From assembly GCA_947493005.1 (NCBI GenBank), contig CANLOY010000009.1:1-64000 (forward strand): a stretch of 64,000 nucleotides of DNA. Direction: 5' to 3'. This DNA comes from an uncultured Roseivirga sp. GTDB lineage: Bacteria; Bacteroidota; Bacteroidia; Cytophagales; Cyclobacteriaceae. Of this stretch, positions 1,501 to 24,083 are shown piece by piece. Within the stretch, counting starts at the first letter, position 1. Each line of letters opens with the position of its first letter. The notes under the pieces were generated by a model that searched no databases, was not told where the DNA came from, and saw nothing but the letters and a program-made list of their open reading frames with translations. The position numbers and the translations under genes are program-made.

Positions 1501-2817
1501 TTAGTCATCATTAGACCTATCCAATAGCCTGGTATTAATTTGCTTACTGGCCTTTGCACCTAGTTTTTTCAAGTTTTCTGCCTTTCTGACAAGATTACCA
1601 CTACCTTCAGAAAGCTTTTTCATTGATTCTTGGTAGACCTTCTGAGTGACTCCTAAGTGTTTTCCTACCGAAATGAGGTCTTCTGTAAAACCCTGGAATT
1701 TGTCATAGAGAGCACCTCCTTGTCGTGCTATTTCAATTGCATTTTTGTTTTGGTACTCCTGTTTCCAAATTGAGGAGATGGTTCGTAAGGTGGCAATCAG
1801 GGTTGTTGGACTTACTATAACAATGTTTTTTGAATAGGCTTCATTGAAGAGTTCAGGGTCTTGCTGAACGGCCAAAGTGAATGCAGGTTCTATAGGTATA
1901 AAAAGCAATACAAAGTCTAAACCTTCTAAGCCATATAAGTTTTGATAGTTTTTGTCACTAAGTCCTTTTACATGGGCTTTGATGGAATTGATATGAAGTT
2001 TTAATTGAGATGACTGTTCTTTGTCTTCCTCTTCATTGACAAATCGCTCATAAGCGGTCAAGGATACTTTTGAATCTATTATGATATGTTTATTGTCAGG
2101 TAGTCTTACAACTACATCAGGTTGGTATCTTTTTCCATCATCACCGACTTCTGAAACCTGTGTCTCGTATTCACGATCTTTTTCGAGTCCTGATTTCTCA
2201 AGAATTCTCTCCAGAATCACTTCACCCCAATTCCCTTGTGCTTTTGAGTCACCTTTCAGCGCTTTGGTTAGATTCTCGGCCTCTTTGGTAATCTGTTTAT
2301 TCAGATCGCTTAAGTGTTTGATTTGTTCAACTAAAGAAGCATTTCTTTCAGCACCTTCCTTGTTGGTATCTTCTACCTTCTTCTGAAACTCTCCTATTTT
2401 CTCTTTAAGAGGGGTGAGTAAGTCATGAATGTTAGTTTTGTTTTGTTCAGTGAACTTTTTGCTCTTTTCTTCAAAAATCTCATTGGCAAGGTTCTTAAAC
2501 TCATGAGCGAACTTCTGATTCAAGTTTTCTAACTCTTGTTTTTGTTCCTCTAACCTAGACTGTAAACTTTTATGCTCTGTTTGAACCTGAGTAAGTTGAT
2601 TGCTCAGAGACATGGTTTTTTCACGCTCTTTGTTGAGCTCTGGTTTTATTTCGGAAAGTTCTTGGGAGACCATTGAGTGCCTTTCTTCTGCTAATTGCAG
2701 TTTGTTCAGTAATTCAGGCTCTCTGGAATCGTTTTTTTGACTGTATTTACTTTTGGACATAAACCAAGCGGCCAGTCCTCCTAAAATTGCACCTGCGATT
2801 AACCAAATGATTTCCAT
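1501..2817 (-). CDS. rmuC: DNA recombination protein RmuC
   Basis: 438 aa, the usual family length. An N-terminal transmembrane helix (residues 3-20) is followed by a long coiled coil (about 35-200) and then the RmuC nuclease-like domain: QGNWGEVILERILEKSGL, YQPDVVVRLPDNKHIIIDSKV (the acidic/Lys PD-(D/E)XK-like core), then IPIEPAF. RmuC limits inverted-repeat-associated rearrangements and has been linked to anti-phage and mobile-element control. The gene is monocistronic; ATG at 2817 lies a few bases after a clean promoter box. Confidence 0.93.
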   Translation of the reverse strand: MEIIWLIAGAILGGLAAWFMSKSKYSQKNDSREPELLNKLQLAEERHSMVSQELSEIKPELNKEREKTMSLSNQLTQVQTEHKSLQSRLEEQKQELENLNQKFAHEFKNLANEIFEEKSKKFTEQNKTNIHDLLTPLKEKIGEFQKKVEDTNKEGAERNASLVEQIKHLSDLNKQITKEAENLTKALKGDSKAQGNWGEVILERILEKSGLEKDREYETQVSEVGDDGKRYQPDVVVRLPDNKHIIIDSKVSLTAYERFVNEEEDKEQSSQLKLHINSIKAHVKGLSDKNYQNLYGLEGLDFVLLFIPIEPAFTLAVQQDPELFNEAYSKNIVIVSPTTLIATLRTISSIWKQEYQNKNAIEIARQGGALYDKFQGFTEDLISVGKHLGVTQKVYQESMKKLSEGSGNLVRKAENLKKLGAKASKQINTRLLDRSNDD

Positions 2818-2835
2818 ATTTACTCAGTATTTCTA

Positions 2836-2843
2836 CAAATATA
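2836..2843 (-). promoter_or_regulatory. Bacteroidota -7 box upstream of rmuC
   Basis: Minus-strand TATATTTG, matching TAnnTTTG, 19 nt upstream of the rmuC ATG. No convincing -33 TTG is seen at the usual spacing. Confidence 0.4.
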
Positions 2844-2887
2844 TCTGAAAGAGATACACCTGACTGAGTTAAAGGATTTATTATATA

Positions 2888-3496
2888 TTAGGCTAACATT
2901 TTTGAATCACTGTATAGTACCTCATCTTGCTCTGCTCCAATGTTTTTGCTGAATAAATATTGTGTTAATAAATTTTCCAATGTACAATCCAGTTCTAAGA
3001 AATCGTCTAGTAGACACCAAGGTTTAACGGTAAGCTCTATAGATTTATTCTTGATTTTAGAAACCTGAATCTTAGGAGTAGGTGTACTAAGTATTCTATT
3101 GTTCTGTATCAGAAAGGTGAGAATCTCTTCTTTAACTTTTGACATGTTACTTTTATAGGAGATTTCAACAATGAGTTCCAGACTGATAATGTTCTTGCTT
3201 GATAAGTTGTGAAGATGTTTTTTATAGAACTCAATATTTTCAATGGTGAATTCGGCACCATTAACGCTTTTTAGAGTAGTTTTTTGAGCCCCTCTTTTAA
3301 TCACTGAGCCCAGTTGTCCGTCAATTTCAATAAAATCTCCCTTATTAAATGGCTTAAAAACTTTTAGCATTAACCCACTTCCTAAATTGCTTAATGGTCT
3401 GAAGAGGTTTTTTTGCATTCTATTACCTGACGAACTCATAATAGGATCAATTTGTTTGTATGCACTTTTGCAATTCACATACCAATACTCTGTCAA
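2888..3496 (-). CDS. MscS-like cytoplasmic domain protein lacking membrane helices
   Basis: 202 aa. Residues about 38-85 (GSGLMLKVFKPFNKGDFIEI, then TLKSVNGAEFTIEN) match the end of TM3 and the beta domain of MscS-family mechanosensitive channels, followed by a plausible alpha/beta C-terminal domain. The three transmembrane helices that form the pore in true MscS proteins are absent, and no hydrophobic stretch precedes the domain. The listed frame begins at a TTG; the first ATG is at 3439 (residue 20), just before the MscS match. It could be a decayed channel gene or a soluble partner; nothing next to it suggests a role. Confidence 0.6.
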   Translation of the reverse strand: MTEYWYVNCKSAYKQIDPIMSSSGNRMQKNLFRPLSNLGSGLMLKVFKPFNKGDFIEIDGQLGSVIKRGAQKTTLKSVNGAEFTIENIEFYKKHLHNLSSKNIISLELIVEISYKSNMSKVKEEILTFLIQNNRILSTPTPKIQVSKIKNKSIELTVKPWCLLDDFLELDCTLENLLTQYLFSKNIGAEQDEVLYSDSKMLA

Positions 3497-3603
3497 ACTA
3501 AATAACCCTACTTTAGTAGTGAAATAGCACTTTTTTCTTTTGAGCTCATGATGTGTCCTTTCCCAATGTGGGAAGAGGTAATCTGAAATTGGAATCTTTT
3601 ATT

Positions 3604-5982
3604 CTAGTGAACAGCCACTTTATCAAGAATTATTAAACCTTTCTTTGACTGATCAAAAATGAATTCCATTGAAACAATGGCATTTGAATTAAAGTCCAGG
3701 AACTTTTCTTTTAGCTTAGAAAGGTCAATAAAGAATGTGTTATATACCGCTTCAGACGTTTTGTTGCTTTGTAATTCTGTATTCTTGAAAACATCTACAG
3801 ATAACTGGCGCTGAAGATAGCTGTAGTCGCTCAGTTTAGTTCGAGCAATAACCCCATTTTCATCTTCGAATTGAATCGTAAAGTCAATGGGTTCAGGAGC
3901 CTTTTTCTTATCACCATTATCTTCTGAATCAGAACTTTCCTTGCTTTCTTCTTTATTGTTTTCCGACTCTTCATTTTGATCGTTTTGACTATTGTTATTT
4001 TCCTCGTTCTCCTCATTCTTATTTTTGTTATCCCGTTCCTTGTCAGGGTAGGTACTGCCTTTGGCTTCGGACAGCTCGAAAGTAAAATTAGGAGTTAGTG
4101 ATGCATTTATCTTTTCGTTAAATACAACCTGATACCTGGCTGTATCAGCGTTGTAGGCCAGGCTATCCCAGCCCAGGTAGGCTGCCCTGGTGGCTTTATT
4201 ACCCCATTTCATACCTACCAGTTTTTCTTTCCAAACAGTGAGGTTTGAGGTATTGATTTTACCTTTTGAAGAGGTTGTAGTTAAGTCGAGATCTTCTTCA
4301 AAATCAGCTAATACATTCCAATCAGAGGTTTGATATTGATTTAAATAGATTGTTTCGGGAAGCCATTTGCTACCAGTTCTATAATCTTTGAATAGGTTTT
4401 TGTACTCACTTTTTCCTTGCAGAGTGGCTTGTAGAAAAGCACTGATATAAACTCTGCCGATAGTAAGTTGATCTTCCATGGGGATAAGCGCATCGACATT
4501 TAGTAATGAACCAAATGGAAAACCTGAATCCCTATTTCCCCAAGTAGTATTAAACTGCCCATGGTTGGCTCCGTAAACATAAACTGCGGATTTGAAGTAA
4601 TCTGAAGAGTCATTGAATTCAACCCTTTCATATTGCCTGAGGCCAGCAAAAGACTGTACGTCTCCATCATTGGCTCCATGAATCACCAGATAGTTAACAT
4701 TTTCTAAAGGGGTACCAACGTTGGCTGGTTTGTACTGACCATCTACTGGTGCAATAGCCACTACGGATTTGATGTTGAAACCGAAATCGAATTCTTGTTT
4801 GGCATTATCCGGGTAGAAGGGGAGCTTGTTAAAGAAACCTGCTATTGCTGCTGCTTCTCCACCTCTGGAATGCCCCATGACCGCAAGATTGTCCATATCT
4901 ACTTTTTGATAAAAAGGGCCTCCTTGTTTTTCATTCCATTTTCTCCAATATCTCAGATGTTCCAGTAATAACCACCCTCTTGCATCATTCTCTTTATTAA
5001 GACCATCGCTAATGAAATCAGTCCAGCCACTATTAATAAAGTTCTCATCTACACTGACCATGATCATGCCTTGACTCGCCAGTAATTCGCCAAGGTATTC
5101 ATACCCAGGATCGGAGTAGTTAAACATGCTATGATTGCCATGAACAATTAGCGCTAATGGGAAAGGGCCTTCTCCTTTTGGGTACCAAACACGACCATTT
5201 ATTGGTAGGGCCTCGTCATCAAAGCCCCAATACCAAGTTCTTAGTTTGCCCGAAATACCTTCCCAATTGTCCAAGAGTCTGGATCCGTCAATGGAGTCTG
5301 TAATTATTGTGGCATCATTGCCGAATTCTGGTCTATGTTCATCCTTACCACTTCCATAGGTGAGGTATTCTACTTCGTATGTGCCCGGTTCAGCAGGGTT
5401 GGGAAGTTGAATATGTTGTGGTTTATATTCAGATTTCTTTGCCGCATTGATGTGCTCTGTTTCTGGTTTGAAACCAGTGTCGGCCAACCATATTAATCCC
5501 CATACTAAACCAGAAACGCCAATCAGTATTCCTGCAACTGATGTTATTTTTTGTATAAGTGTGTTATCACTTCGGGTGTTCTTAAATAGCGTATAAATTC
5601 CTGCTCCGGATGCTCCTGAAAAAACAATGACAAATACCGGGAACTTCCAACTCAAGTCTCCCATGCCAAATACAAAAGGCATCAAAAAAAAGGTGCCAGG
5701 AATAATCAAGAAGAGGCCTTTGTGTAGCTTTTTGACAATAAGCCTTCCTAGTATAGCTGCTAAGCCCAAAAGGAGAGCAATTATGAGTCCTAGTAAAATC
5801 ATGGCTGCTCCAAAGTAGGTGCCGGGAGCAGTAACAAACATGATGGCAGACGCTACTAACCAAATAATAAGGGTGGTTGTGGCAATTGCTTTAGTAGCTC
5901 CCTTCCAGGCAACAGGTCCTGGCTTAAATTTTACAAGGAAGTTTGTAATTGATTTCCAGATTCTTTTAAAAAAATTGACCAT
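3604..5982 (-). CDS. Membrane-anchored alpha/beta hydrolase
   Basis: 792 aa. About five transmembrane helices occupy residues 25-170. The following domain is an alpha/beta hydrolase: oxyanion region FPLALIVHGNHS, nucleophile elbow GHSRGG (Ser near residue 370), acid in HGANDGD (about 437) and catalytic His in GANHGQF (about 472). A beta-rich C-terminal part is interrupted by a roughly 50-residue Asn/Glu/Lys low-complexity linker, then a predicted carbohydrate-binding or jelly-roll-like end. The fold is similar to chlorophyllase/PET-hydrolase-like proteins; substrate is unknown. It stands alone, with 140 bp of non-coding sequence upstream. Confidence 0.8.
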   Translation of the reverse strand: MVNFFKRIWKSITNFLVKFKPGPVAWKGATKAIATTTLIIWLVASAIMFVTAPGTYFGAAMILLGLIIALLLGLAAILGRLIVKKLHKGLFLIIPGTFFLMPFVFGMGDLSWKFPVFVIVFSGASGAGIYTLFKNTRSDNTLIQKITSVAGILIGVSGLVWGLIWLADTGFKPETEHINAAKKSEYKPQHIQLPNPAEPGTYEVEYLTYGSGKDEHRPEFGNDATIITDSIDGSRLLDNWEGISGKLRTWYWGFDDEALPINGRVWYPKGEGPFPLALIVHGNHSMFNYSDPGYEYLGELLASQGMIMVSVDENFINSGWTDFISDGLNKENDARGWLLLEHLRYWRKWNEKQGGPFYQKVDMDNLAVMGHSRGGEAAAIAGFFNKLPFYPDNAKQEFDFGFNIKSVVAIAPVDGQYKPANVGTPLENVNYLVIHGANDGDVQSFAGLRQYERVEFNDSSDYFKSAVYVYGANHGQFNTTWGNRDSGFPFGSLLNVDALIPMEDQLTIGRVYISAFLQATLQGKSEYKNLFKDYRTGSKWLPETIYLNQYQTSDWNVLADFEEDLDLTTTSSKGKINTSNLTVWKEKLVGMKWGNKATRAAYLGWDSLAYNADTARYQVVFNEKINASLTPNFTFELSEAKGSTYPDKERDNKNKNEENEENNNSQNDQNEESENNKEESKESSDSEDNGDKKKAPEPIDFTIQFEDENGVIARTKLSDYSYLQRQLSVDVFKNTELQSNKTSEAVYNTFFIDLSKLKEKFLDFNSNAIVSMEFIFDQSKKGLIILDKVAVH

Positions 5983-6124
5983 AACAGGCTGAGGATGATT
6001 TGATTTGCCTTAAGGTAATCAATTAAGGACTTGATTCAAACGTGAATATGTTGAGTGTCACCAATGGTCGGAGGGGGGGCTAATGCTCTGTTGATTATTC
6101 TTGTGTATTTTTATCAGTACCCAA

Positions 6125-6538
6125 TTAAACAGTGGCAATACACTTCAATTCTATGGCTATTGGGGTAGGAAGTGAGTCGATTTCAACGGTAGTTCTACAA
6201 GGTTGATTGTCCTTAAAGAACTCTGCGTAAACACGGTTGTAGGTGGCAAAGTCGTCTTTCATATTAGTGAGAAATACTGTGACATCGACAAGCTTGTCCC
6301 AACTGCTTCCGGAAGCTTCCAGAATTAGTTTTACATTGTTAAAAACCGACCTGCACTGCGTTTCAATGTCATAGTCTAGAATGTTGTTATCCACATCTAG
6401 GGTAACTCCGGGAATTACTTTAGTTCCACGTTCTCTGGGCCCCACTCCTGATAAGAAGAGCAGGTTTCCTACTTTTCGTGCATGTGGATAAAGGCCTACC
6501 GGTTCTGGCGCTTTATCTGAATTAATTTTTTCGTTCAT
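6125..6538 (-). CDS. RidA-family protein, 2-aminomuconate deaminase-like
   Basis: 137 aa from ATG 6538. RidA/YjgF fold: YPHARKVGNLLFLSGVG, then DIETQCRSVFNNVKLILEASGSSWDKLVDVTVFLTNM and the C-terminal PCRTTVEIDSLPTPIAIELKCIA. RidA enzymes deaminate reactive enamines or imines. The opening KAPEPVGLYPHARKVG and the GPRERGTKVIPGV insert resemble the subgroup annotated as 2-aminomuconate deaminase in tryptophan/kynurenine breakdown; no other kynurenine gene is nearby, so the substrate is uncertain. A longer TTG-started frame (to 6562) would overlap the previous gene, so the ATG 8 nt after its stop is preferred. Last gene of the pepP-GNAT-unknown-ridA operon. Confidence 0.85.
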   Translation of the reverse strand: MNEKINSDKAPEPVGLYPHARKVGNLLFLSGVGPRERGTKVIPGVTLDVDNNILDYDIETQCRSVFNNVKLILEASGSSWDKLVDVTVFLTNMKDDFATYNRVYAEFFKDNQPCRTTVEIDSLPTPIAIELKCIATV

Positions 6539-6546
6539 GATATCGT

Positions 6547-6828
6547 TTATTGAGGTACCCAAATACGGTCAGCTTTTACTTTTTCAAGTCTTGATGGGAT
6601 TGTAATTTGATTACCTGATTTGCAATAAAAGATAAAGCCTTTATAAGAAGTACTGTACTTATATCCACGATTTAAAAATCCTTTATCTCCTTTTTCTATT
6701 ACGATACCATCATCCATCCTGGAAATCAGGCTGCTAAATTCATTAGGTGCTATTTTTACAATAGCTCCGGATGCTTTTATTGCCTCTTGTATTGCTGCCT
6801 GTGCAGCAGCAGCTCCTGATCCACTCAT
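6547..6828 (-). CDS. Small conserved-looking protein of unknown function
   Basis: 93 aa. An Ala-rich helix (residues 3-22) followed by a compact mixed segment with MDDGIVIEKGDKGFLNRGYKYSTSYKG, ending with DRIWVP. No family recognised. It starts 1 nt after the stop of the GNAT gene and ends 8 nt before ridA, so it is co-transcribed and probably a real gene. Confidence 0.65.
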   Translation of the reverse strand: MSGSGAAAAQAAIQEAIKASGAIVKIAPNEFSSLISRMDDGIVIEKGDKGFLNRGYKYSTSYKGFIFYCKSGNQITIPSRLEKVKADRIWVPQ

Positions 6829-18904: not shown

Positions 18905-19269
18905 GGGGCCGACTGGAATTGACAGTAGGTGAAATGCAAGTGTAAGCATGTCGGGAGTTGTTCGTATTTCCCGTAAATAAAACGATCAACCTTTTTAAAT
19001 GGCGAAAGACAATACGCCCTTGCTGCCTAATCAGATTTAGATAGCAATGTGTCTCGCTGGCCCCCTGTTCTGCCGGGCTGGCAACCGAGGCATCAACCGC
19101 GGAACTGGCTGCTGCGGAGTTGTGACGTAGCAGTAAGATTAATCGCATCTAAGGTTTAGTTTAGGTCTGTTGCCGACCTTGCTCAACTCGAAAACTAATT
19201 GGCAAATAAACATGTAGAAGGCACTTAGTGTTCCTTATCTGGACGAGGGTTCGATCCCCTCCGGCTCCA
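18905..19269 (+). ncRNA. ssrA: Transfer-messenger RNA (tmRNA)
   Basis: The 5' end GGGGCCGACTGGAATTGACA pairs with the 3' end CGGCTCC plus discriminator A; the T-arm GAGGGTTCGATCCCCTC is directly upstream of that. The tag-coding part at 19001-19030 reads GERQYALAA and TAA, ending in the usual LAA degron, and pseudoknot-forming GC-rich stretches follow. The CCA end is not encoded (sequence continues CTTT). About 365 nt, normal length. It rescues stalled ribosomes with SmpB. Confidence 0.96.
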
Positions 19270-19274
19270 CTTTC

Positions 19275-19513: not shown

Positions 19514-19756
19514 ATGCATACAGTTTATATTCTTAAATGTGCAGATGACTCCCATTATGTAGGATGCACAGGGAATTTGGAAAATAGACTAATCAGACAC
19601 AATAGAAAAGAAGTTCACTATACCAAATCAAGATTACCTGTTGAAGTAGTTTTGAGTATTAATTTCCCTGATAGATATAAAGCTTTTGCTTTCGAAAGGT
19701 ACCTGAAGTCTGGAAGCGGTAGAGCCTTTATGTATAAGAGGTTTGTTTCGAGGTAA
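19514..19756 (+). CDS. GIY-YIG domain protein (small, UvrC-N-like)
   Basis: 80 aa. HTVYILKCADDSHYVGCTGNLENRLIRHN is a GIY-YIG core with VYI and YVG as the name-giving motifs and Arg on the following helix; FAFERYLKSGSG carries the conserved Glu. Such single-domain proteins are common in Bacteroidota; their biological role is unclear. It is the first gene downstream of ssrA and precedes the large STAND gene. Confidence 0.85.
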   Translation: MHTVYILKCADDSHYVGCTGNLENRLIRHNRKEVHYTKSRLPVEVVLSINFPDRYKAFAFERYLKSGSGRAFMYKRFVSR

Positions 19757-19836: not shown

Positions 19837-22125
19837 ATGAATCGATTGTCAATCATCAAAAATCAATTAAAACTAATTAGTGGAGAAGATTTTCAAGAGT
19901 TGTGTGATTGCTTTTTGAGTTTGAGACATAGGGGGTACAAAGCCTTTACTAGAAGTGGTGCTCACGACACGAAACAGAAGACTACTCGTGGTACTCCAGA
20001 TTCCTTTTTCTTAATGCCAAATGGACTTTACCTTTTCGTTGAGTCTACTACTAAGGAGCATAAAGGAAATGAGCTGATAAAGAAGTTACAAAACGATATT
20101 TCTGAATGTTTGAATGAAGGAAAAACTAAAATTCGTAGGAATAAAATACAGGAGATAATTCTTTGCTATAACTCCAACCTGAAGGCTCATGAAATTGAGG
20201 ATGTGAACAAAGAAGCTATAGAGGTTTTAGGAAGACCGCCAAGGCACTATGGCTTAAGTGATTTAGCAAATGAGATTTTCCTACATCATAAGAATTTAGT
20301 CCATGACTATTTGGGGCTTTCGATTGATACTGGTCAAGTGGTTTCGCTTGAAAGTTTTATAGAGGAATATGACAATGGGAAGCAAAAGCTGGCTACTCCA
20401 TTGGGCGGCACTTTCCTTCACCGAGCACAAGAGTTGGAATCTTTAAAGACTCAATTAAGCGCGCAAGATATTGTTATTATTTCGGGCCCGGCTGGTGTTG
20501 GGAAGTCAAAACTGGCGTTAGAAGCAATTCGACATTTCCTTGAAAATTATCTGGACTATAATGCTTTTGCCATTTCTCCAAAAGGCACAGATTTGATAGG
20601 CGATTTGGGGACTTATTTTGGGGGAGATGAGAGTAGTATTTTGTTAGTTGATGATGTGAATCGGGTTGATAAGTTTCAGCAAATTCTTGGATTTTACCGT
20701 TCAATGAAACCTGGTCAACTGAAGTTGGTCCTTACCGTACGTGATTATGCATTGGAGAATGTTAGGGCTTGGATGGCTGCTTATACCTCTTCTATCATAG
20801 AGATTAAGGGGTTTGAGGATAAGGAAATAAGCGAGATAATTGAACAGGAACCGTTTGAGGTGCGCAACGGTGATTATCAATATAAGATCAATAGAATTGC
20901 AAAGGGGAATGCAAGATTGGCCGTGATGATGGCAATGTTAGCAAAAGAAGCTAATTCACTTGATTCTCTAAATAATGTTGCTGATTTGTTTGAACAGTAC
21001 TTCGAGACATTTGTTAGTGATGAAGATTCATTTAAGGATGTTCGAGTACTCAAAACTTTGGGGATACTTTCATTCTTCTACACATTACCATACAAAGACG
21101 GGATAGAACTTAACTCAATAACTGAAGCTTTCAATATTTCAGGGGATGAGTTAAGAGAAGCTTATGACAGGCTTCATCAACTGGATTTGATCCAATTGAA
21201 ATATGAACATGCCAAAATTGGTGAGCAGAACCTTTCTACTTATTTCTTTTATAAAGTGTTTCTGAAAGACCAATTGCTCTCATTTGAGAAGCTTTTTCTG
21301 AGTTTTTTTGATAAGCAAGAACATCGGTTTCGTGATACCGTTATTCCCGCATATCAGAACCTCGATCCAGAATCAGTTAGAAATAGCATTAAACCGACTT
21401 TGCTTAAATATTTAGCAAGGGTGTCAGATTATGAAGACAAGACCTTCAAGTTTCTGAATTTTTCTTGGGAGTTTTTACCTGACGAAACAATAACTTATCT
21501 GGAATCAAGAATTGATTCATTTCCTAAGCTGGAAATAGTAGATTGTAATACCAAGTATGAAACGAATGACTTTTCAAATAAGCAAGAAAAGCATTTAAAA
21601 CTCCTATCAAAGTTCTTTAAAGACATATCTACATCCGGAGATGCTTTAGACCTCTCTTTTGAATTTGTGCAGCGGTTCCCGGAACATTTGGCAGAGTTTG
21701 TTTATAACATAGATCATAAATACAATTTCATTCGAACTGACTACCAGAATCATTTTGTGAGACAGCAGGAACTGGTAGAATATTTAGTTGAGGAAATTGG
21801 AAAAGGAATATTGTTCGTCAGAGCCTTTTTCGCTATTTCTGGTAAGTTGTTGGAGCGGTTTCGATGGGAATATGAGAAGGTTTCAGAGGGTGAGGAAGAT
21901 GACTCAAATATTGCAGTTGCGAAGCAAATTAGGGGGCAAATTCTGAGGACACTTTGTTCTCAATATGATTCATATCCGGAGGAATCATTGAATTTAATGC
22001 TGGATTTTTCAACCGGATATAGCAAGGAAAACAAGGATACTTTTACTTTCGACCTTGATTTTCTAATTCCTTTTGTTGATTCGAAATTGGTTGGCGATAA
22101 TTTCCGTCACTGCTACTATGTGTAG
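19837..22125 (+). CDS. STAND NTPase with PD-(D/E)XK-like N-terminus, N-terminal part (Avs-like defence candidate)
   Basis: 762 aa before an in-frame TAG. Residues 1-130 resemble a Mrr/PD-(D/E)XK nuclease: E17 in GEDFQEL, D55 in RGTPDSFF, E69 in YLFVESTTK. A P-loop STAND ATPase follows (Walker A ISGPAGVGKS near 215-224, Walker B SSILLVDDVNR near 267-277, sensor-type LTVRDYA), reminiscent of the nSTAND3 group, then a helical region. This architecture is that of Avs-type anti-phage sensors, which pair an N-terminal nuclease with NTPase and a C-terminal sensor. The rest of the protein continues in the same frame after the stop. Located just behind ssrA. Confidence 0.8.
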   Translation: MNRLSIIKNQLKLISGEDFQELCDCFLSLRHRGYKAFTRSGAHDTKQKTTRGTPDSFFLMPNGLYLFVESTTKEHKGNELIKKLQNDISECLNEGKTKIRRNKIQEIILCYNSNLKAHEIEDVNKEAIEVLGRPPRHYGLSDLANEIFLHHKNLVHDYLGLSIDTGQVVSLESFIEEYDNGKQKLATPLGGTFLHRAQELESLKTQLSAQDIVIISGPAGVGKSKLALEAIRHFLENYLDYNAFAISPKGTDLIGDLGTYFGGDESSILLVDDVNRVDKFQQILGFYRSMKPGQLKLVLTVRDYALENVRAWMAAYTSSIIEIKGFEDKEISEIIEQEPFEVRNGDYQYKINRIAKGNARLAVMMAMLAKEANSLDSLNNVADLFEQYFETFVSDEDSFKDVRVLKTLGILSFFYTLPYKDGIELNSITEAFNISGDELREAYDRLHQLDLIQLKYEHAKIGEQNLSTYFFYKVFLKDQLLSFEKLFLSFFDKQEHRFRDTVIPAYQNLDPESVRNSIKPTLLKYLARVSDYEDKTFKFLNFSWEFLPDETITYLESRIDSFPKLEIVDCNTKYETNDFSNKQEKHLKLLSKFFKDISTSGDALDLSFEFVQRFPEHLAEFVYNIDHKYNFIRTDYQNHFVRQQELVEYLVEEIGKGILFVRAFFAISGKLLERFRWEYEKVSEGEEDDSNIAVAKQIRGQILRTLCSQYDSYPEESLNLMLDFSTGYSKENKDTFTFDLDFLIPFVDSKLVGDNFRHCYYV

Positions 22126-22128
22126 GAA

Positions 22129-23547
22129 ATGATTCGCTCCGCCAAACGAGAGGGAGTAAAGCACTCAGAATTTGAGAGGTTGAAAAAGGCTTTTGAACAT
22201 GAGGTGTACTCTGATTTTGAAGTACTAAATCGCGAAAGAAGGAGAGGAAAGGAAAGCCATGATTTTAAGGATTACAAAGAGTTTGAAAGGTTAAAAGATG
22301 CCGACCTAGCTAAGAGGTTTACGTTTTCTTCCACAGATCAAATCGAGGCTTTTATTTCCAATTATAGAGAAATTCGAAGCTGGGATAAAATCAGCATTTA
22401 TTCTCAAAGTGATTGTTTTCATACGATAATAAAGAGTAATCTTTCCATTGATATAGAAACGGGTTTTGAGGTGTTTCTAGGCCTTGCCAAGTTGAGTGAT
22501 TCTATGAGCCAAATACCTTTTTTGTTTAAAACCATTGAATTGATAACAGCAACTCCTGGTTTGGTTGAAAGGTTTTGGAAGGCAATTGGCGAGAGGGGCT
22601 TGCACGAAAGTTGGCGATTGGATTTACTTACGAGCCTAAAGCCGATTGTAATTGAAGAAAAGCATTTACAGAGACTTTATACAATGGCTGAGACCTTGAA
22701 TAATGATTATTATCTGAATTTAGAACGATGTAGACATTTCGAAAAAATTGATTCTGAGGTAATTGTGAAACTGCTTGAAATTGTAACTAGGAGAAATGAA
22801 GAAGGAAATTTAAAGACTAGATTAAACTATGACTTCTTTAATGGTGAAATTATCACAGAGGCAAATTTGCAATTGTTCAAGAAAGCCTATTTACAACAGA
22901 GCTCTATTCATGATCTTTTTGATTATCAGGGTCGGGGCTTGCTGACTATCCTGAGTTTCGATGTAAAATTCGTACTTGACTTTTTGAAAATGCTATTTGA
23001 TGGCAATAAGAGAGAAAGGGCTCGTGATCATAAAGAATTATCAATAATCTGGGGGCTACCGAATGCGGAAGATATTTTGGATAAGGCCATTGAATTCATG
23101 GCTGAAATGCGATATAACTGGAGGTTTAGTAAACATTTTGCGAATGCATTTTTTCAAAGACTTACAAGTAGTGAAAAGGCTGATGCCTATTTAATCAATT
23201 TGATTGCAAAACATAGTGACAAACCAAAAATTATGAATATCGCTTTTGATGTCATTAATCATTCCAGAAAGGGGTTATTCGTTCAAGCATTCAAAACCTA
23301 CATTAAAATCAATCAAGATTTGGAATCATTCAAGGACATTGAATGGTCACAAGGTCAAGTGCTTTTCTCTGGAGGAACAATTGTGGGAGATGTAAGAGCG
23401 GGTGAATGGAGTCGATTATTAGGAATGGTTGAAGGTGTAAAATTAGGCTCAAAAACACGTTCTATAAGAGGTTATATCAAAAGGAGAAGAGATAGTGAGC
23501 TTAGATTTGCTGAAGATGAAAGGAAGAGACAGTTTTTTGGTTTCTAG
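22129..23547 (+). CDS. STAND NTPase, C-terminal helical part separated by one in-frame stop
   Basis: 472 aa, beginning at ATG 22129, in exactly the same frame as the upstream part: TAG, one Glu codon, then ATG. Helical throughout, without recognised motifs, ending in a basic tail (KRRRDSELRFAEDERKRQFF); compatible with the sensor/TPR-like region of STAND proteins. Reading through the TAG gives one protein of about 1,236 aa. TAG differs from CAG (Gln) by one transition, so a recent nonsense mutation is a simple explanation; a two-subunit split with re-initiation or readthrough are alternatives. Confidence 0.65.
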   Translation: MIRSAKREGVKHSEFERLKKAFEHEVYSDFEVLNRERRRGKESHDFKDYKEFERLKDADLAKRFTFSSTDQIEAFISNYREIRSWDKISIYSQSDCFHTIIKSNLSIDIETGFEVFLGLAKLSDSMSQIPFLFKTIELITATPGLVERFWKAIGERGLHESWRLDLLTSLKPIVIEEKHLQRLYTMAETLNNDYYLNLERCRHFEKIDSEVIVKLLEIVTRRNEEGNLKTRLNYDFFNGEIITEANLQLFKKAYLQQSSIHDLFDYQGRGLLTILSFDVKFVLDFLKMLFDGNKRERARDHKELSIIWGLPNAEDILDKAIEFMAEMRYNWRFSKHFANAFFQRLTSSEKADAYLINLIAKHSDKPKIMNIAFDVINHSRKGLFVQAFKTYIKINQDLESFKDIEWSQGQVLFSGGTIVGDVRAGEWSRLLGMVEGVKLGSKTRSIRGYIKRRRDSELRFAEDERKRQFFGF

Positions 23548-23611
23548 CCTTCCCCTGAACTTTATTTAAGTATAGTCATCACACTTGTATTCAAATCAAA
23601 CTGTGGAAACA

Positions 23612-23641
23612 CCGTCATTCCTGCGCAGGCAGGAATCTTGC
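23612..23641 (+). repeat. Palindromic intergenic repeat, left copy
   Basis: 30-nt element whose core is the hairpin ATTCCTGC-GCAG-GCAGGAAT (23617-23636). It is the inverted partner of 23990-24019 on the other side of the GIY-YIG gene. Confidence 0.85.
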
Positions 23642-23670
23642 TGCTTTACTACCACGATAAACACAAAGGA

Positions 23671-23973
23671 ATGATTGCCAAAGGAGGTTATGTGTATATT
23701 GTTTCAAATCCTAAACGAACAGTTTTGTACACTGGTGTAACCTCCAATCTTTATAGCAGAGCTACAGATCATAAAAACGGAAGAGGAGGTACTTTCTCAT
23801 CTAAATACGTGTGTACAGATTTAATTTATTTCGAGTTTATCGATGATATAGAATCCGCCATTTTAAGAGAAAAGCAAATTAAAAAATGGAAACGTGCTTG
23901 GAAAGAGCGTTTGATTAATGAGTTTAATCCATCATGGAGAGATTTGTATAATGAAATTGAGAATTACCAATAG
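23671..23973 (+). CDS. GIY-YIG nuclease-family protein bracketed by inverted repeats
   Basis: 100 aa from ATG 23671 (a TTG at 23638 is in frame but lies inside the repeat). GGYVYIVSNPKRTVLYTGVTSNLYSRATDHK is the GIY-YIG core (YVYI, YTGV, Arg on the helix), and ILREKQIKKWKRAWKERLI supplies the conserved Glu and a basic helix; the end INEFNPSWRDLY is typical of this group. Such genes are commonly found beside short palindromic repeats in this phylum. The repeats on both sides are inverted relative to each other, suggesting the gene and its borders moved as a unit. Confidence 0.87.
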   Translation: MIAKGGYVYIVSNPKRTVLYTGVTSNLYSRATDHKNGRGGTFSSKYVCTDLIYFEFIDDIESAILREKQIKKWKRAWKERLINEFNPSWRDLYNEIENYQ

Positions 23974-23989
23974 GCTAGGCTGTTCGGAT

Positions 23990-24019
23990 GCAAGATCCCT
24001 GCCTGCGCAGGGATGACGG
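23990..24019 (-). repeat. Palindromic intergenic repeat, right copy
   Basis: Read on the minus strand it matches the left copy with core ATCCCTGC-GCAG-GCAGGGAT. The two differences from the left copy fall on opposite sides of the stem and keep the pairing (T:A replaced by C:G). Confidence 0.85.
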
Positions 24020-24083
24020 TTATCGCTAGGGTTTGTGAGAGTGTTGGTGATTGCTTTTTGTAGAGCCTAACTCTTTGTTGTTT

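Follow-up and report, generated by a model that had tools for sequence, protein, structure and literature searches.

A putative Avs4-like STAND nuclease gene behind ssrA in an uncultured Roseivirga sp., probably recently inactivated by one in-frame stop codon

Known Avs proteins and the predicted protein

The nuclease of the Avs1-4 proteins is described as cleaving both phage and host DNA once phage terminase, portal or another phage protein has been recognised, and Avs5 (AVAST type 5) is described as carrying a SIR2-like effector at its N-terminus (PMC12931631). Avs4 (AVAST type 4) has 1,534 residues, and its structure is available in the form bound to the portal protein of phage PhiV-1 (PDB 8dgf). 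The locus reported here lies in a stretch of 64,000 nucleotides of an uncultured Roseivirga sp., referred to as the window. An earlier note, made from its letters and open reading frames, had described an Avs-like STAND nuclease split by one TAG behind ssrA. We consider it very probable that the locus is a single gene for an Avs4-like STAND nuclease of about 1,236 residues, which was recently inactivated by one nonsense change. The features of the locus are listed in Table 1.

Table 1. Features of the broken gene and its ssrA-proximal surroundings, in window positions.
Feature	Position	Strand	Basis or remark
ssrA (tmRNA), anchor of the variable slot	18905..19272	+	ARAGORN; Rfam RF00023, 129 bits
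Small GIY-YIG protein gene	19514..19756	+	Pfam PF01541, 6.6e-13
First part of the broken Avs4-like gene, 762 aa	19837..22125	+	Nuclease, STAND NTPase, start of the helical solenoid
N-terminal PD-(D/E)XK-like domain, residues ~1-167	19837..20337	+	Alignment, structure model, Avs4 fold match
STAND NTPase module, residues ~190-460	20404..21216	+	Pfam nSTAND3 at 199-334, fold matches
Alpha-helical solenoid, presumed sensor, residues 464-1236	21226..23544	+	Structure model to residue 1195; interrupted by the stop
In-frame TAG, position 763	22123..22125	+	Within predicted solenoid helix 756-771
Second part of the broken Avs4-like gene, 472 aa	22129..23547	+	Open frame, ATG start, TAG end

The three-part layout proposed in the earlier note, with a PD-(D/E)XK-like N-terminus, a STAND P-loop NTPase and a helical C-terminus, was recovered in full (Table 1). 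In the family alignment, P54, D55, E69, T72, K83 and D87 of the N-terminal domain are invariant, and the P-loop GPAGVGKS is encoded at 20485-20508. With the TAG read through, the structure model is almost entirely helical from residue 464 onward. By its predicted fold the protein is Avs-like, the best solved structural match being Avs4 both for the whole model and for the N-terminal nuclease alone, with a low whole-chain TM-score of 0.22-0.25 (query-normalised). It shares with Avs4 the nuclease fold, the central STAND NTPase and the C-terminal helical repeat; however, it is shorter, with about 1,240 residues, and its gene is interrupted by a TAG, whereas 15 relatives have an intact single open reading frame. 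In place of the N-terminal SIR2-like effector of Avs5 it has a restriction-nuclease-like fold. Among distinct molecules, human SAMD9 ranks second for the whole model (E 1.1e-8); it is a eukaryotic protein with a distant fold resemblance only (TM-score 0.14-0.15), and Avs5 has likewise been noted as resembling SAMD9 (PMC12931631).

The Avs architecture claimed earlier thus holds by fold but not by curated profiles. The Avs models of PADLOC matched neither of the window frames (E up to 1) nor any of 16 aligned family members (E up to 0.01), and those of NCBIfam matched none of the four proteins scanned (E up to 1), which points to an Avs4-like STAND nuclease family that these profiles miss. Searched by sequence against the PDB, the N-terminal domain gave no match up to E 10; against Pfam, the window copy gave none and other members gave scattered weak matches only, and a profile comparison with a neighbouring Mrr-like protein gave no match. 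No Pfam family reached its cut-off in the second frame. The C-terminal solenoid is presumed from the model to be the sensor. By analogy with the described Avs proteins, the solenoid of the intact protein would bind a phage protein, the nSTAND3 NTPase would then oligomerise, and the N-terminal nuclease would be switched on and degrade DNA, whereby the infection would be aborted.

The interrupted frame and its relatives

Coordinates and translation agree exactly with the two in-phase frames of 762 and 472 aa described in the earlier note. The GAA codon at 22126-22128 is the sole codon between the TAG and the ATG of the second frame, and the joined gene comprises 762 codons, the stop, one codon and 472 codons, i.e. 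1236 positions in one reading frame; in the frame translation, neither part contains a further stop before its end. The second part is the genuine remainder of a coding sequence. The chance of a 473-codon stop-free frame at the composition of the window is about 4e-18, and both parts align in one frame, two codons apart, to uninterrupted homologues, which together exclude a chance origin of the second frame. A scan for sigma-70-type promoters and terminators gave site numbers about equal to those of shuffled sequences. Within the titles and abstract openings of the literature, a scope outside which most subscription literature lies, no description of a nonsense-broken Avs gene was found.

A search of 295 genomes of the same family with the first part matched 20 genomes. 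The long gene is present in six of them (the window genome G000, G178, G183, G090, G067 and G112), the same-genus genome G257 has a short remnant only, and 13 genomes with short matches only, mostly around the P-loop (E 5.7e-5 to 9e-4), were set aside. The second part matched seven of the 295 genomes, G197 having only a C-terminal fragment with a stop. A genome-contig scan added five relatives (L029-L033; one MAG, the other four from named species or strains) with 56-64% identity in the first part, and a profile search of the phylum found six genomes out of 395 at E values no higher than 1e-20, one of them being G000. Two further relatives, L087 and L088, are located on viral contigs, which were searched separately from a phage collection in which tblastn with the first part gave no match. 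Both parts are matched by 13 Leptospira plasmid records and the first part, partially, by one Aulosira plasmid. The family was seen in named Bacteroidota, further genomes of the window's phylum, Leptospira plasmids and two viral contigs. The count of 20 copies used below leaves out the plasmid records of Leptospira and Aulosira and the 13 weakly matching genomes.

Fifteen of the 20 copies are intact single frames of 1,217-1,255 aa (L029-L032, G178, G183, G090, G067, G112, G331, G361, G342, G352, L087 and L088); the G361 copy (L091) measures 1,220 aa from the first listed start codon, its length being taken from the match start. The homologues are thus not always encoded as two genes, and because the relatives carry the gene whole, the window copy is most likely one of a known kind of gene that has newly been broken. 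At the TAG column, where an uninterrupted residue, Gln, had been expected, no stop occurs in any of the 15 intact relatives: a residue stands there in all of them, Gln in nine, and Arg (2), Glu, Ser, His or Asn (1 each) in the other six. The window copy is one of five damaged copies. L033 (Polaribacter) has two frameshifts, at about residues 272 and 1130, G370 has one near residue 614, and the fragment of G197 and the remnant of G257 are also counted as damaged. Since the damaged copies break at differing places and 15 relatives are intact, a conserved two-gene form was rejected. Damage in five of 20 copies accords with a fast turnover of immune genes, the figure standing without control genes of like length. 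The broken copy is in itself an ordinary kind of event, and the intact relatives are useful test material.

In two relatives of the same family, the STAND gene is immediately preceded by two small genes, of 141 and 250 aa in L095 (9913-11053) and of 140 and 243 aa in L096 (5144-6263). The 250-aa protein of L095 weakly matches a nucleoside 2-deoxyribosyltransferase family (under the cut-off) and a TIR effector model (4.6e-8) and is possibly an accessory effector; no such gene was seen at the window locus. In G352 (L093), the next gene after the intact STAND gene, at 2299-6555, encodes a 1,418-aa protein with no useful Pfam or PADLOC match.

Readings of the stop codon

The window copy was compared with the intact relatives over residues 1-1195, where the alignment ends, the part after the stop comprising residues 764-1195. 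Columns were taken as conserved if 12 or more of the 15 remaining sequences agree, each sequence being left out in turn. The window copy departs at 10 of 166 conserved sites before the stop and at 4 of 27 after it, and its four nearest relatives depart at 7-12 of 164-168 sites before the stop column and at 3-6 of 25-28 after it (from 3/26 to 6/28). The terminal-branch ratio of the part after the stop to that before it (C/N) is 1.90 for the window copy and 1.85, 2.13, 1.50 and 1.59 for the four relatives. As far as tested, constraint past the stop looks as it does in intact relatives, with no sign of relaxation. A recent lesion would give this picture, as would a read error or a second part that still functions, and the stop is left undated, the tests being coarse at such divergence.

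Recent inactivation was the first of the alternatives given in the earlier note, and the 15 single-frame relatives without a stop at this column argue for it. In the window genome, translation would end after residue 762 and yield the nuclease, the NTPase and a solenoid lacking its last 474 of 1,236 positions. As all of these belong to the presumed sensor, sensing is expected to be lost, and the window copy is probably inert.

A sequencing or assembly error, with the gene intact in the living strain, is quite unlikely. It would account for a single substitution in an otherwise clean frame and for a constraint after the stop that is indistinguishable from that of intact relatives; however, the site at 22123-22125 is not in a homopolymer, and damage is seen in five of the 20 copies, among them that at the orthologous locus of a same-genus relative, although errors could explain some of the frameshifts too.

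We regard as quite unlikely a natural two-piece system, in which termination-reinitiation at the TAG and the following ATG would yield a 472-aa sensor apart from the nuclease-NTPase, the two then assembling. The ATG at 22129 is only three bases past the TAG and could allow translation of the second part, neither part holds a further stop, and constraint is retained. The boundary, however, which would be conserved among relatives in a two-gene split STAND system, is found in none of the 15 intact copies, the other damaged copies break elsewhere, and the window copy is cut within a predicted helix. Furthermore, the Met opening the second frame is also present in three of the 15 intact relatives (L029, L031 and L097) and in the damaged L033, so that it may be an old internal residue and need not be a start. 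The two-subunit version suggested earlier is hence not borne out, and it is very unlikely that this is a natural split Avs whose halves, made separately by termination-reinitiation, assemble only in some conditions and so keep a costly immune protein off.

A suppressible amber, read through to give the full-length protein, would suit the residue found at the TAG column in every intact relative, but it is extremely improbable, being disfavoured by tRNA content and TAG usage: ARAGORN found no CTA anticodon on the 35 loci holding the tRNA places (at least 37, from 150 of 372 first-look candidates scored, in a genome 98.7% complete), and among the 41 non-overlapping ORFs of the window with 150 aa or more, 18 end in TAG, the two parts of this gene among them, so that efficient suppression would be costly.

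The ssrA slot and the history of the gene

The order at the window locus is ssrA, the small GIY-YIG gene and the broken Avs4-like gene. The closeness to ssrA pointed out earlier therefore holds in that the gene lies behind ssrA, but not as direct adjacency, because the GIY-YIG gene lies between them. Besides G000, 16 same-genus genomes have a tmRNA over the cut-off (17 of 19 searched), three of the ssrA stretches being short (L065, L069 and L079). A GIY-YIG match follows ssrA in nine of the 16 stretches, in two of these as pieces only, and the sole trace of the STAND gene is the remnant in G257. Among the neighbouring genes, of which a sample was scanned, the slot of G222 holds an IetAS pair (L071 3622-7249; PADLOC 5.7e-293 and 6.8e-144), those of G257 and G171 hold HipA-like genes, and that of G286 holds an AAA ATPase matching 136 PADLOC models (best AriA, 9.5e-20), matches that are probably generic. 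Other slots contain genes without a defence match. Since its contents differ across the genus, the slot is variable, and it is not purely a defence island of the inherited kind that the earlier note had suggested.

In G257, the block of ssrA, GIY-YIG gene and gene start (L076 10368-12771) is inverted relative to dnaX. The remnant carries an insertion of 1 nt as well as a stop, breaks off near codon 50, and differs from the window copy at 19 synonymous and 7 other positions among 43 comparable codons, the stop and two break codons being included in the latter. As a possible sign of integration at ssrA, the window was searched for a second copy of the 22-base ssrA 3' end, and none was found when up to 3 mismatches were allowed. 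In the phylogenetic tree, the window copy groups with L029-L032 (support 100/100), which are three Flavobacteriaceae and one Bacteroidota MAG, and away from the same-family copies. Given this placement and the remnant at the same locus, the simplest reading is a horizontal acquisition before the split of G000 and G257, whereby the gene would have entered the genus at the variable slot behind ssrA. The window copy is thus probably an Avs4-like gene that was acquired horizontally and inactivated not long ago.

Several relatives have neighbours connected with phages or defence. The intact copy of the viral contig L087 adjoins portal, major head and terminase genes, and that of L088 is near a tail-fibre gene. 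L030 (Aquimarina) has IetAS and TmtA as neighbours, the damaged copy of L033 adjoins a type I methyltransferase, and L090 is next to a nuclease-like gene that weakly matches LmuA and Avs2; three of the eight neighbours scanned for such loci gave no PADLOC match. These neighbourhoods tie the family to phage conflict as associations, not as proof of defence.

A second GIY-YIG gene (~23662-23973) is located downstream of the broken gene and is flanked by a 31-nt inverted repeat with arms at 23611-23641 and 23990-24020, which are 94% complementary and have a palindromic core. With up to 1 mismatch allowed, the genome has four copies of the core pattern; two of them flank this gene, and a third is situated about 1.3 kb from another GIY-YIG gene. 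The unit formed by the inverted repeat and the GIY-YIG gene (23611-24020) is possibly a small mobile or REP-like unit.
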